Assembly: GCA_039636865.1 (NCBI GenBank) | Contig: CP144172.1 | Location: 3,162,001-3,226,000 of the forward strand | Source: Dermatophilaceae bacterium Sec6.4 | GTDB taxonomy: Bacteria > Actinomycetota > Actinomycetes > Actinomycetales > Dermatophilaceae | Direction: 5' to 3' | DNA length: 64,000 bases | In this document: positions 52,721 to 56,405 of the stretch, one piece after another | How the letters are laid out: each line of letters starts with the position of its first letter | Position numbering within the stretch: the first letter of the stretch is position 1 | Position numbers and translations under genes: made by a program | Notes under the pieces: generated by a model | What the model was told of the DNA's origin: nothing | Seen by the model: the letters and a program-made list of their open reading frames with translations, nothing else | Databases searched by the model: none

Positions 52721-53134
52721 ATGACAACTCGCGACCGCACCTGGACGATCGCGCAGCTCGCCACCGAGTACGACGTCACGCACCGTACGCTGCGCCACTA
52801 TGAGGAACTGGGCCTGCTGAGCCCCGAAAGACGCGGCACGGCACGGGCCTTCACGAGGCGCGACCGCACCCGGTTGGCGTTGATCCTGCGTGGTCGACGA
52901 CTCGGCTTCGCGCTGGAAGAAATCCGCAAGATCGTCGACATGTACGACGAACAACCGGGCAGGGTCGGGCAGTTGAATTACCTGTTGGGGCAGATCCACG
53001 AACGACGCAGTGATCTCGAGGCGCGCCGTCGGGATATCGAGGACTCCCTCGCTGAGCTCGTCGAGCTGGAGCATCGTTGCAGTGCGGATCTTCAGGCGCT
53101 GCGGGCGCAGCGTGCGCTTCCCGTCAGCCGGTAG
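52721..53134 (+). CDS. MerR-family regulator, LiuR-like
   Basis: 137 residues from ATG at 52721. N-terminal helix-turn-helix WTIAQLATEYDVTHRTLRHY (about residues 7-26), wing with LLSPERRGTARAF, RDRTRLALILRGRRLGFALE, then a long dimer helix (DLEARRRDIEDSLAELVELE, about 101-120). No Cys-rich metal site. LiuR-like regulators control branched-chain amino acid and fatty-acid oxidation genes, matching the divergent acyl-CoA dehydrogenase operon. Its 3' end overlaps the convergent HD-domain gene by 11 bases. Confidence 0.92.
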   Translation: MTTRDRTWTIAQLATEYDVTHRTLRHYEELGLLSPERRGTARAFTRRDRTRLALILRGRRLGFALEEIRKIVDMYDEQPGRVGQLNYLLGQIHERRSDLEARRRDIEDSLAELVELEHRCSADLQALRAQRALPVSR

Positions 53135-54416
53135 CGGGCGAATGCTGTCGTAGAGCGGCTACGACGGCCGGGTCGTACTCGTAGCCGAGCCCCAGGGACA
53201 GGCGCTCCAGCGCAAGGTCAGTGGGCTGCCCAGCCGCACCGGTGAGATCGTCGAATGCGTTGCACACCTTGATGATCCGAGCTGCGAGGGGCACGTCTTC
53301 ACCGAGTTCGCGCACTCGCCGGTACGGCACGGCCTGGGCCTCGATGATCACGGCGACCTCGTCGAGGACTCCGCTTCGCCGCACGATGCTGCCACCTTCG
53401 CGAGCCAGCTCCTCCTGGTCGCGTGGGGCAGCTTCGATGGTTGCTCCACCTGGGATCGGGGTATCCAGGGAGACCTGACCGATGTCGTGCAGCAGGGCGG
53501 CATCCTCCAGGACGGCCAGGTCGTTGTCCGACAGCCCGAGCGACTCACCCACTCGGCGGGCCAACGACGCCACCCGCGTCGAATGTCCGGCACAGGTGAA
53601 GCCGGCGACGTCGGTCATCGTCGCAAGTGCTGCAATGGTCTCCCGCCGTTCGGCGCGCATCACATACCCTCGCTGGAGCCCCGAGCGGGCCAGCATCAGA
53701 GGCAGCGAAATCAACGGGATCGCCCACAACGACAAGGTCGGTAGCGCAATCGCAATTGCCAGACCCGTCGAGGCCGCTGCCACGTAGATAGGGCCCAGTA
53801 CCCGCAGCGCCGATCGAATGAAGGTCGGCCGTGCGAGGACGGGGGCAGTGAAGAATCCGAGCATCACCACCTCGAAGGTCAGTGGAAGCGCGATGCACCC
53901 GGCCATCACCCCCATCCATCGCTGGGACGCCACTTCCCGGGCCATCACAAGGCCGGAAACCCCGTTCCAGATGGGCAGCCACCGGTAGACCACGGAGATC
54001 GCAGAAACGGTCAGCACATGCAGCGCGAGGTCGAGGGGCCGCACCGCGCCTTGCTTCCTGACCCGACGCAATCCGCCGCCCAGGGCGTAGCCGGCACCGG
54101 CAGCCAGGATGGCCGCCGATGTCTGCGACGGCAAGCCGGTGCCGGCAGCCGTGGCGGGTACCAAGGCCACCACCACCGAAAACGCCGTTGCGAGCGGCGT
54201 CACGGCGGCGAACTCGCCGATCCGGACCGGAAACGCGGCCGCAGCCCCGATCGCGACCGCCAGGATGAGGAAGACCATCGCGTCCCAGGAGCCCATTCGC
54301 CGGCCATTGCTCAGATCGTGGACGACGATCAACAGAGCCAGCGCCAGGCACACCAACGATGACGCCACCACGAGCCGCCCGGACCACCGGCGCAGTACGT
54401 CATCAGGAGTGGTCAT
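53124..54416 (-). CDS. Membrane HD-domain protein, degenerate HD-GYP (HD gene 1)
   Basis: 430 residues. About seven hydrophobic segments fill residues 15-250, including VVASSLVCLALALLIVVHD and LTFEVVMLGFFTAPV. The cytoplasmic HD domain (about 270-410) keeps HSTRVASLARRVGESLGL and ALLHDIGQVSLDTPI, so the first His and the HD pair are intact. The HHExxDGxGYP loop is missing: VIIEAQAVPYRRVRELGEDV takes its place. It may hydrolyse another phosphoester or act as a regulator. Its start overlaps the stop of HD gene 2 by 14 bases, so the two are coupled and probably work together. Confidence 0.85.
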   Translation of the reverse strand: MTTPDDVLRRWSGRLVVASSLVCLALALLIVVHDLSNGRRMGSWDAMVFLILAVAIGAAAAFPVRIGEFAAVTPLATAFSVVVALVPATAAGTGLPSQTSAAILAAGAGYALGGGLRRVRKQGAVRPLDLALHVLTVSAISVVYRWLPIWNGVSGLVMAREVASQRWMGVMAGCIALPLTFEVVMLGFFTAPVLARPTFIRSALRVLGPIYVAAASTGLAIAIALPTLSLWAIPLISLPLMLARSGLQRGYVMRAERRETIAALATMTDVAGFTCAGHSTRVASLARRVGESLGLSDNDLAVLEDAALLHDIGQVSLDTPIPGGATIEAAPRDQEELAREGGSIVRRSGVLDEVAVIIEAQAVPYRRVRELGEDVPLAARIIKVCNAFDDLTGAAGQPTDLALERLSLGLGYEYDPAVVAALRQHSPATG

Positions 54417-55821
54417 CAGCTACCTGCAGTCCATCAGCGAACATTTCCGACACCCAGGGAAGATGCGGATCAACCCCGACCATCGGCTGTGGCGGATCCC
54501 CGATCACCAAGGCGCTACACCCGTGGATGACCCGCTCGTGGGCGCGCCGCAACGCATCGACAACAGCCGGGTCGAATTGCGTGTAAGCCCCGGCCTCCAC
54601 CGCCGCAAGGCTGCGTTCCGCGATCTTCGCGAAACCGACCCCGGTGACATCAGCGTCCGCTCGGCCAGCGTCGGCAAGCAGCAACGCGCAGTAAGCGTCG
54701 GCCACGCTGAGGATTAAGGCCAACTGTGGGATCTGTTGCTCCCGCAACCCATCCGGGTATCCGCGACCGTCCCAACGCTCATGATGGTGCTCCGCGGCGC
54801 TACGCGATTCGGCGAGGAAGTCGATCCCGTCCAGCATCCGCATACCTTGTCGCGGGTGCGCGAGGATCCACTCGCGCTCGGCACCGGTCAGATGGATGCC
54901 CGGGCTGCGGGAGGCGGGGGCCACCAGACCGATGTCATGCAGTAGTGCTGCGTGTTGCAGGGACCGCATGGCAGCAGGCGGCAGCCGCAACGCCACCCCG
55001 ATCTCGCGGGCGACCGCCTCGACCCAGACGCTGCGCCCGCGCAGCATCGGCTGGCCTGCCTGCCCGGCTGCAACCAGGGTCTCAATAGTTCGTAAGTGCG
55101 CTTCGTACTCCTGCGCCCGCAGCCCGATGGACCACTGCGCGATCAGCAACGGCGCGACGATCGGTAGGAAGCTGACCGGTCCCAACTTGATGGGGGCCCA
55201 CAGCACCGCGAAGACGAAGGCGATGACGGCATACGCCGGGTAAAGCGTCCACACGTTTGCCGCCACTTCGTACAGCGAAAGATCCAGCGGCTGACCGGAG
55301 GCAAGCGACACCATGACGGCGACACAGATCACGTTGACGGCGAAGTTCAAGACCATCGCCACGATCAGCGGAACAAGTACGTGGACGATCATCGAGTTGG
55401 CACTTGCAGTCGCCGGTATCGGGGAGGTACCGGAGAACAGTGCGTATCCGAATGCGCCGCTCACGGCGCACAGCGTGATGGTCGCGGTATTGAACAATCG
55501 CACCGACATCGGAACCCGCTGCGGAGCCAACGCCGCACTGCAGAATGCCACTATTACGCTGCCGAACAGCCCCGCAAGGGGAAGCGCCGCTAGGATCGCA
55601 ATTGTTGTCAGCGACAGCGTCCTAGCGTGGCGCAAGTTACCGTAGTTTGACTGCGCGAGGAGTCCGAGCAATGCCAGACAGACGGTCGGCACGAGCGGCG
55701 GAGATCTGATGACCGCTGCCGATGCGACGATTGCCCCGACGGTGGCCGCGATTGCCGTCGTCACCAGCGCCACGATGAAGGTTAACTGCGCAGAGGACAA
55801 TCCCAAACGTGAACGTCGCAT
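54403..55821 (-). CDS. Membrane HD-GYP-domain protein (HD gene 2)
   Basis: 472 residues from ATG at 55821 (GTG at 55824 also possible). Six or seven hydrophobic segments occupy residues 10-235 with almost no long loops, so any signal must be met in the membrane. The HD-GYP domain (about 265-430) has ALLHDIGLV, HPRQGMRMLDGI and the diagnostic EHHHERWDGRGYPDGL. This is the cyclic di-GMP phosphodiesterase loop. The first family His seems replaced (RGRSVWV where gene 1 has HSTRV), so the metal site is not entirely standard. It is 87 bases downstream of the peptide gene on the same strand. Confidence 0.87.
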   Translation of the reverse strand: MRRSRLGLSSAQLTFIVALVTTAIAATVGAIVASAAVIRSPPLVPTVCLALLGLLAQSNYGNLRHARTLSLTTIAILAALPLAGLFGSVIVAFCSAALAPQRVPMSVRLFNTATITLCAVSGAFGYALFSGTSPIPATASANSMIVHVLVPLIVAMVLNFAVNVICVAVMVSLASGQPLDLSLYEVAANVWTLYPAYAVIAFVFAVLWAPIKLGPVSFLPIVAPLLIAQWSIGLRAQEYEAHLRTIETLVAAGQAGQPMLRGRSVWVEAVAREIGVALRLPPAAMRSLQHAALLHDIGLVAPASRSPGIHLTGAEREWILAHPRQGMRMLDGIDFLAESRSAAEHHHERWDGRGYPDGLREQQIPQLALILSVADAYCALLLADAGRADADVTGVGFAKIAERSLAAVEAGAYTQFDPAVVDALRRAHERVIHGCSALVIGDPPQPMVGVDPHLPWVSEMFADGLQVADDHS

Positions 55822-55908
55822 CACAATTCACAGATTACTCAAACAACCCGGCGGCACCGCAGTTCAGTTAGCTACGCACCGCGAGCCCGTGAGTGACCAG
55901 GCGAATGT

Positions 55909-56055
55909 TCAGCGGCCGGTGGGGTTCCAACCGATGAAGCTGTCGGCCGGGTCGGTCTTCACGATGCGGCCGGTGGGGTTCCAGCCGATGAAGCCGTCGA
56001 CGCCGACGCTGGTGAAGCGGCCGAAAGTGGCGGTGGAGTTCGTTGCAGCGTCCAT
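55909..56055 (-). CDS. 48-residue peptide with duplicated FIGWNPTGR motif
   Basis: The start is ATG at 56055, with AGGAGA eight bases upstream; the longer 97-codon frame would begin inside the promoter region and has no ribosome site. Residues 1-19 are a Ser/Thr-rich, signal-less leader. DGFIGWNPTGR ends at residue 30 and DSFIGWNPTGR ends at the C-terminal residue 48. The two units repeat with an 18-residue period. The matching DNA is nearly identical over 28 bases, with one synonymous change. No Cys, no signal peptide, no membrane segment. Placed first in line with two membrane HD genes. It could be a precursor of a short peptide signal, a modified peptide, or a small partner protein. I know no family for it. 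Confidence 0.7.
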   Translation of the reverse strand: MDAATNSTATFGRFTSVGVDGFIGWNPTGRIVKTDPADSFIGWNPTGR

Positions 56056-56140
56056 GATGGCTCTCCTGAATTGAGAATCTGGGTGACAGCGCCTGATGTA
56101 TCGGCCGTCGCTACCATGATCAAATAATTCAATTTGCATG

Positions 56141-56168: not shown

Positions 56169-56330
56169 AAAAGACGCAATTTACCCCTGCTTTACCAGTC
56201 AAAGACTCCGTCGAGACCAGGTGTCCGCATGTCGGGGCTGCATTCGAACGGCTGCCGGGCGGGCTACCCTGTTACGGCATCAACCAACGGTCCTGCGCTT
56301 CGCGCGGCCGTACGTCACCTGGAGGACATC

Positions 56331-56405
56331 ATGAGCAAACGAGCTCGCAAGCGCCGCTCCCGCAAGGGCAAGTCCGCTAACCACGGCAAGAAGCCCAACG
56401 CCTGA
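56331..56405 (+). CDS. Ribosomal protein bL37 (24 residues)
   Basis: The product MSKRARKRRSRKGKSANHGK plus four residues is almost entirely basic. It matches mycobacterial bL37 in plan, a 24-residue large-subunit protein ending HGKxPNA. GGAGG lies five bases before ATG. It sits beside rsrA-sigR, the position known for this gene in actinobacteria. It is too short for normal gene finders. A strong hairpin follows. Confidence 0.85.
   Translation: MSKRARKRRSRKGKSANHGKKPNA

Follow-up and report, generated by a model that had tools for sequence, protein, structure and literature searches.

A variable, tryptophan-bearing peptide gene upstream of HdgA-type membrane HD proteins in Actinomycetota: a candidate peptide signal and its receptor

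This study concerns a small gene in a 64,000-nucleotide (nt) stretch of the genome of Dermatophilaceae bacterium Sec6.4 (GenBank assembly GCA_039636865.1, contig CP144172.1, positions 3,162,001 to 3,226,000), which is referred to here as the window; the genome, G000 in our set, has 3.8 Mb. The original prediction had described a 48-codon gene with a good ribosome site, ending in two near-identical FIGWNPTGR units that start 18 residues apart, and followed on the same strand by two overlapping genes for membrane proteins with HD domains, one of the HD-GYP type. All of these elements were confirmed, and Pfam recognizes an HD domain in both proteins, named HD1 and HD2 here. The local gene order is sigR and rsrA (both minus strand), bL37 (plus strand, 56331-56405) and then, divergently on the minus strand, the peptide gene, HD1 and HD2, with the following features:

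55909..56055, minus strand: peptide gene, 48 amino acids plus stop, ending in two FIGWNPTGR units; an open reading frame (ORF) with a Shine-Dalgarno sequence and with syntenic, diverged ORFs in both congeners
55966..55992, minus strand: FIGWNPTGR copy 1, residues 22-30
55912..55938, minus strand: FIGWNPTGR copy 2, residues 40-48
56061..56067, minus strand: Shine-Dalgarno sequence AGGAGAG of the peptide gene, five bases before its ATG
54403..55824, minus strand: HD1, membrane HD-GYP-type protein (HdgA type), the proposed receptor
55111-55824, minus strand: membrane part of HD1, about residues 1-238
54406-55110, minus strand: HD part of HD1
53124..54416, minus strand: HD2, membrane protein with a degenerate HD domain (HdgB type), overlapping HD1 by 14 nt
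55825..55908, minus strand: gap from the peptide stop to the HD1 start, without a terminator-like site
56180..56196, minus strand: GGTAAAG...GGTAAA upstream of the peptide gene, a possible operator or promoter element, the word being enriched in family loci

At the DNA level, the two FIGWNPTGR units form a 34-nt direct repeat with 94% identity, so that a recent duplication would explain the window pair taken alone. A search of the peptide against 5.8 billion proteins at E <= 10 returned a single candidate, the self-match, and no match was obtained at the Pfam and NCBIfam cut-offs. A six-frame search of the 186 family genomes gave a match at E <= 1 in 107 of them and recovered neither congener ORF, the best match outside the window (E 0.004) being located in G003 on a contig other than that of its HD1. 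Relatives were identified via synteny and not via similarity, and none of those scanned scored over a curated cut-off (0/8 in NCBIfam and 0/9 in Pfam). The two congeners, whose HD1 proteins are 56% and 53% identical to that of the window, each carry at the syntenic spot a different short ORF, MLTSATSASTATSSFTGWIPRVNNFTGWIPQR and MLTSTTSATTATSSFNGWLPRVTSFNGWLPR, in which a diverged unit occurs twice, FTGWIP in one and FNGWLPR in the other; the units are thus near-matching inside each congener and divergent between species. In the second ORF (genome G002), the two SFNGWLPR units show five base differences and no residue change, which indicates that the unit is maintained at the protein level, and in two copies.

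At E <= 1e-25, HD1 was detected in 143 of the 186 family genomes, which is a minimum, as a profile search subsequently recovered it in G054 and G185; at E <= 1e-55, it was detected in 93 of the 296 class-level genomes. As proposed with the original prediction, short ORFs were sought upstream of homologous tandem HD genes; both congeners have them, as do most of the loci analyzed, where they are diverged. The loci comprised 90 of the 143 from the family (L084 then dropped) plus nine further family loci, four order-level loci and 44 of the remaining 87 class-level ones. The rule called for an ATG or GTG ORF of 13-90 amino acids on the HD1 strand, with a Shine-Dalgarno sequence and a Trp within the last nine residues, lying from 400 nt upstream of HD1 to 30 nt inside it. 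This rule, devised after the loci had been inspected, matched 107 of 146 loci (80/98 in the family, 3/4 in the order and 24/44 in the class), as compared to 10/146 on the reverse strand and 10.7/146 in dinucleotide shuffles; before this count, L084 was dropped for its 183 nt of upstream sequence and L188 for a flank lacking HD1, and the match in L189 and the earlier of the two matches in L196, both probably due to chance, were left in. Because the congeners carry two diverged units each, and because the association is upheld against controls across 146 loci, the pattern goes beyond chance. Typical tails are SWED, IWGWGG, TWTWGG, VIWDPVSR, GISWT and GWSWW, and a common class-level form is MKKIVSAVEQFLQTTAQWKW. 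Outside the class, similar ORFs precede HD1 in two of six loci: L308 and L310 have short ORFs, MKRIFAILGAIAAVFLAAGANTTWH and one ending in AQARW, and L313 has an ORF of this kind that lacks Trp. No peptide ORF was found in the nine Streptomyces-like loci (g145).

To separate HD1 from its neighborhood, the rule was run divergently from bL37. Family loci with HD1 matched in 72 of 87 cases (9/87 on the reverse strand), versus one of the 17 HD1-free loci, where the single match was an arginine-rich ORF bearing no likeness to the peptides. The HD1-negative set started from 27 loci (27 genomes asked, 26 with SigR), from which four without bL37, two short ones and four holding an HD1-like stretch were removed; the latter four contained no ORF. 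Moreover, class loci in which none of sigR, rsrA and bL37 was found in the fetched stretch still had the ORF in 12 of 18 cases. Together, these results indicate that the peptide travels with HD1 and not with the sigR locus. The peptide core also tracked the HD1 membrane part, with a partial rank correlation of 0.241 [0.142, 0.344], while the other four intervals include zero; 68, then 63, of 79 peptide loci entered this analysis, among them three ORFs taken by hand (L085, L099 and L100). Judged from its sequences, this is a real, undescribed and widely distributed class of peptides tied to an HdgA-type membrane protein.

We then examined how the precursors are built. Among 112 ORFs, an exact Trp word is repeated in 15, the pattern W.W occurs in 56, and a crude rule marks 15 as having a Sec-like leader, 14 of the family ORFs being so marked. 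Examples include GYTWQG four times (L111) and GWEWGGF three times (L096), both after a Sec-like leader, as well as TWWWHPRPVA twice (L071) and SRFWWYHSA twice (L117), the latter copies showing five synonymous and no other differences. Two unusual arrangements were also observed: 13 GYHNWEPKA copies in three clusters upstream of HD1 in L099 (about 967-1565 of the strand read), and three tandem, near-identical genes in L044, each for a 28-residue peptide ending in SIWGWGG and each with an identical Shine-Dalgarno stretch. Using the L063 peptide as a query retrieved 24 relatives, all lacking a functional name; when these are pooled with eight loci, exactly two xWxWx units are present in 18 of the 32. 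In the 28 precursors starting with MKAITT or MKTITT, the leader is near-constant over ten residues, a conservation that leans on how the relatives were found, while the units vary (GWEWR, GWDWG, GWHWE, GWQWG, AWEWH). The two units of one precursor in the MKAITT subgroup agree at 34 of 36 variable positions versus 7.7 when permuted (p = 0.00001), and at 22 of 24 versus 4.4 when only distinct pairs are considered, as expected if each unit were released as the same ligand. Regarding coding constraint, dN/dS (the ratio of nonsynonymous to synonymous rates) was 0.41 over 19 close pairs, each locus being used once, with 87, 54 and 136 differences at the three codon positions; the pairs were of equal length and at least 55% protein identity, and this choice by protein similarity makes the value lean low. 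Differences among repeats amounted to 40.8 synonymous over 151.5 sites and 12.2 other over 640.5, a ratio that is biased because the repeats were selected by matching protein letters.

An active c-di-GMP phosphodiesterase requires a complete set of metal ligands and HHE..GYP. HD1 carries HD and the HD-GYP-type sequence HHERWDGRGYP, together with HDIGL replacing the classical HDxGK and GRS where the consensus of its relatives is GHS. HDxGK is present in only 11 of 90 family HD1s, and the HHE..GYP stretch is absent from 27 of the 90. The peptide is as frequent where this stretch is lost (23/27) as where it is kept (56/63), with the three hand-taken ORFs included. No GYP stretch was found in 68 HD2s, the window HD2 likewise lacking the motif. 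An AlphaFold model of HD1 (mean predicted local distance difference test score, pLDDT, 92.8) predicts about six membrane helices, with a long helix leading into the HD domain, and the predicted fold of residues about 40-217 appears to resemble the S-components of energy-coupling factor (ECF) transporters, joined here to the HD domain. Among the 50 matches listed for the whole-HD1 model, all 12 that align to the membrane part alone are transporter S-components. At the sequence level, when 18 HD1s were compared with Pfam at E 0.1, no ECF family was matched, and MASE9 gave a weak match in one of the 18. Within G000, an HD1 profile recovered only HD1 and HD2 at E <= 0.001, and the closest named relatives of HD1 are from Allobranchiibius (Dermacoccaceae). 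Of 48 loci from the order and the class, 45 have HD2 downstream of HD1, and the other three have short downstream sequence. In L071, L084 and L100, HD1 and HD2 apparently form one fused open frame of about 957-1039 amino acids, which suggests that the two proteins work as one unit.

The original prediction also regarded the HD domains as second-messenger-type enzymes, with cyclic dinucleotide levels as the readout. As far as cyclic di-GMP (c-di-GMP) is concerned, this part was not supported. No GGDEF protein was detected at E 1e-5 in the three genomes of the window genus (G000, G002 and G003), the same search being positive in 8 of 14 control genomes, and c-di-GMP signaling in this genus was rejected on that basis. 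Over the family, a GGDEF match was obtained in 45 of 186 genomes, and among the 143 genomes with HD1, 108 gave no such match; no association between the two was detected over the 186 genomes (p = 1). The output in the window organism is therefore probably not c-di-GMP breakdown. A DAC domain, whose family synthesizes c-di-AMP, was found in the window genome, so that this nucleotide is probably made; a different nucleotide, or a conformational switch, may serve as the output.

Based on these results, we give slightly better than even standing to the reading that the 48-residue ORF encodes the precursor of a tryptophan-bearing peptide signal, with HD1 as its receptor. The C-terminal unit, in the window the two FIGWNPTGR copies, would be the active part; it would be cleaved and released, via Sec in some relatives, and recognized by HD1 through its S-component-like membrane domain, and this domain would pass the signal to the cytoplasmic HD pair of HD1 and HD2. 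Matching repeats, Sec-like leaders in some lineages, the tracking with the HD1 membrane part and the apparent S-component-like fold all fit such a pair, and the original prediction is thereby supported in part. Association with HD1, coding constraint and matching units inside precursors can be read directly from the DNA, while export, cleavage, binding to HD1 and output are inferred. Nevertheless, several observations weigh against this reading: the rule fails in 39 of the 146 loci, although looser scans reveal a Trp-tailed ORF in five of these (L085, L099, L100, L135 and L192); a signal sequence is absent from the window peptide and also from some relatives of 15-19 residues (MITQPSLRRSWWWQP); and the gap before HD1 has RNA structure above controls (mean z -1.68, with 36% of 83 gaps below -2).

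An uncleaved membrane microprotein, binding HD1 in the same cell as a small partner with the Trp tail as contact, in the manner of regulatory microproteins, is the best-surviving alternative, even if an unlikely one. By eye, many relatives of 20-30 residues begin with a hydrophobic part and lack an obvious cleavage site, as in MSALLVKLAYLAIESAWLVTTVAGWSWW, and a core that tracks the HD1 membrane part would suit a bound partner too. However, two to four tail copies per ORF that match within each precursor, as well as the Sec-like leaders of the 14 family ORFs, better suit a released product, and the congener and g4 forms lack a hydrophobic stretch by eye.

We find it improbable that the ORF encodes a bacteriocin or a ribosomally synthesized and post-translationally modified peptide (RiPP) for which HD1 would provide immunity or sensing. 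A conserved leader followed by a variable core would be in agreement with this, and the W-x-W units, present in half of the ORFs, could be cross-linked. Yet the nearest window genes are sigR, rsrA, bL37, HD1 and HD2, with no modifying enzyme among the neighbors scanned (a genome-wide maturase search was not made), and ORFs of 15-19 residues leave scant space for a leader.

Marginally less probable still is a leader ORF regulating the translation or transcription of HD1 through tryptophan-dependent or arrest-type ribosome stalling. Forms with WWW, as in g4, L071 and L100, resemble trp leader peptides, the ORF ends at a median of 62 nt before HD1 (n = 107), and the RNA structure of the gap exceeds that of the antisense strand (mean z -1.22), of the region upstream of the peptide (-0.34) and of the inside of HD1 (-0.12). 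Stable hairpins, mostly without T-runs, are seen in the gap (e.g., in L075) in excess of shuffled and neighboring controls. Such structure is compatible with a leader device and equally with a hairpin setting apart the amounts of precursor and receptor. However, terminator-like sites occur in only 4 of 107 gaps (1.8 in shuffles) and not in the window gap, 20 loci gave no Rfam match at the gathering score, non-Trp residues are kept despite synonymous change, as in the SRFWWYHSA pair, and Sec-like leaders and single-Trp tails are a poor fit. Further upstream, AT-rich words are enriched ahead of the peptide in family loci (GGTAAAG in 16/80, 0.4 expected; GTAAAGA in 15/80, 0.25 expected), in some loci within a direct repeat, e.g., GGTAAAGACTTGTTCAAGAA; these words may reflect a common regulator or type of promoter. 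Lastly, that HD1 senses a small metabolite through its S-component-like domain, next to unrelated or chance ORFs, would agree with the fold and with the nine Streptomyces-like loci lacking the peptide, but is very improbable given the reverse-strand, shuffle and HD1-negative controls and the dN/dS constraint.

If the peptide signal reading is right, HdgA/HdgB-type proteins gain a ligand gene next door and bacterial peptide signaling a new receptor class, species-specific peptides can be synthesized directly from sequence, and the persistence of HD-GYP proteins in genomes without GGDEF proteins becomes easier to explain. The broader view, which we hold to be evenly poised, is that of an undescribed, possibly phylum-wide form of Actinomycetota peptide communication, with hypervariable, Trp-tailed and often multi-copy peptides and cognate ECF-S-like/HD receptors, which would dispense with c-di-GMP in many species.

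Pairing a peptide signal with a receptor is in itself a known principle, but to our knowledge no described peptide system contains these peptides or this receptor type, and no description of such peptides was found in the full-text literature searched, preprints and most subscription papers being beyond that search. The Agr system, in which a Cys or Ser of the core closes a ring and the AgrB protease is encoded alongside, fits poorly, as FIGWNPTGR has neither Cys nor Ser and AgrB is not among the four neighbors scanned (HD1, HD2, RsrA and SigR); a cytoplasmic tetratricopeptide repeat regulator of the RRNPP/Rgg kind was not among these four either, the rest of the genome not having been searched. 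SHP and ComS/XIP of the Rgg family are tiny ORFs with a hydrophobic front, a short and sometimes Trp-rich C-terminal active part and an adjacent receptor gene, but their Rgg receptors are cytoplasmic and they have no tandem copies. ComX, of the ComQXPA system, is a ribosomal, hypervariable peptide with an essential, isoprenylated Trp near its C-terminus, and shares with our locus a gene arrangement in which such a peptide lies beside a membrane receptor; however, that receptor is a histidine kinase, the prenyltransferase ComQ is adjacent and ComX is single-copy, whereas neither gene lies beside the peptide here, its neighbors being HD proteins. Yeast alpha-factor precursors also hold several identical units, behind a secretion leader as in some lineages here, but they are eukaryotic and act on a G-protein-coupled receptor, so that the likeness concerns layout only. 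In comparison with ECF S-components (PDB 7nnt_C, 4huq_S, 5kbw_B and 3rlb_A), the apparently S-component-like part of HD1 is fused to an HD domain. The closest parallel lies in Streptomyces venezuelae: hdgA (six transmembrane helices and HD-GYP) and hdgB (six transmembrane helices and a degenerate HD-GYP) are adjacent, encode membrane-bound products and very likely form one operon, they are handled among the c-di-GMP proteins, and their mutants had no developmental phenotype, for which the authors propose that activating signals were missing (PMC6205966). The Streptomyces-like loci differ in that no peptide gene was found in them, while it is the GGDEF protein that was not found in the window genus. 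Nevertheless, rsrA is directly upstream of HD1 in eight of the nine and HD2 comes next in all nine, and HdgA/HdgB, like HD1/HD2, pair a membrane HD-GYP protein with an adjacent membrane protein with a degenerate HD domain, so that architecture and rsrA synteny argue for equating the two pairs.
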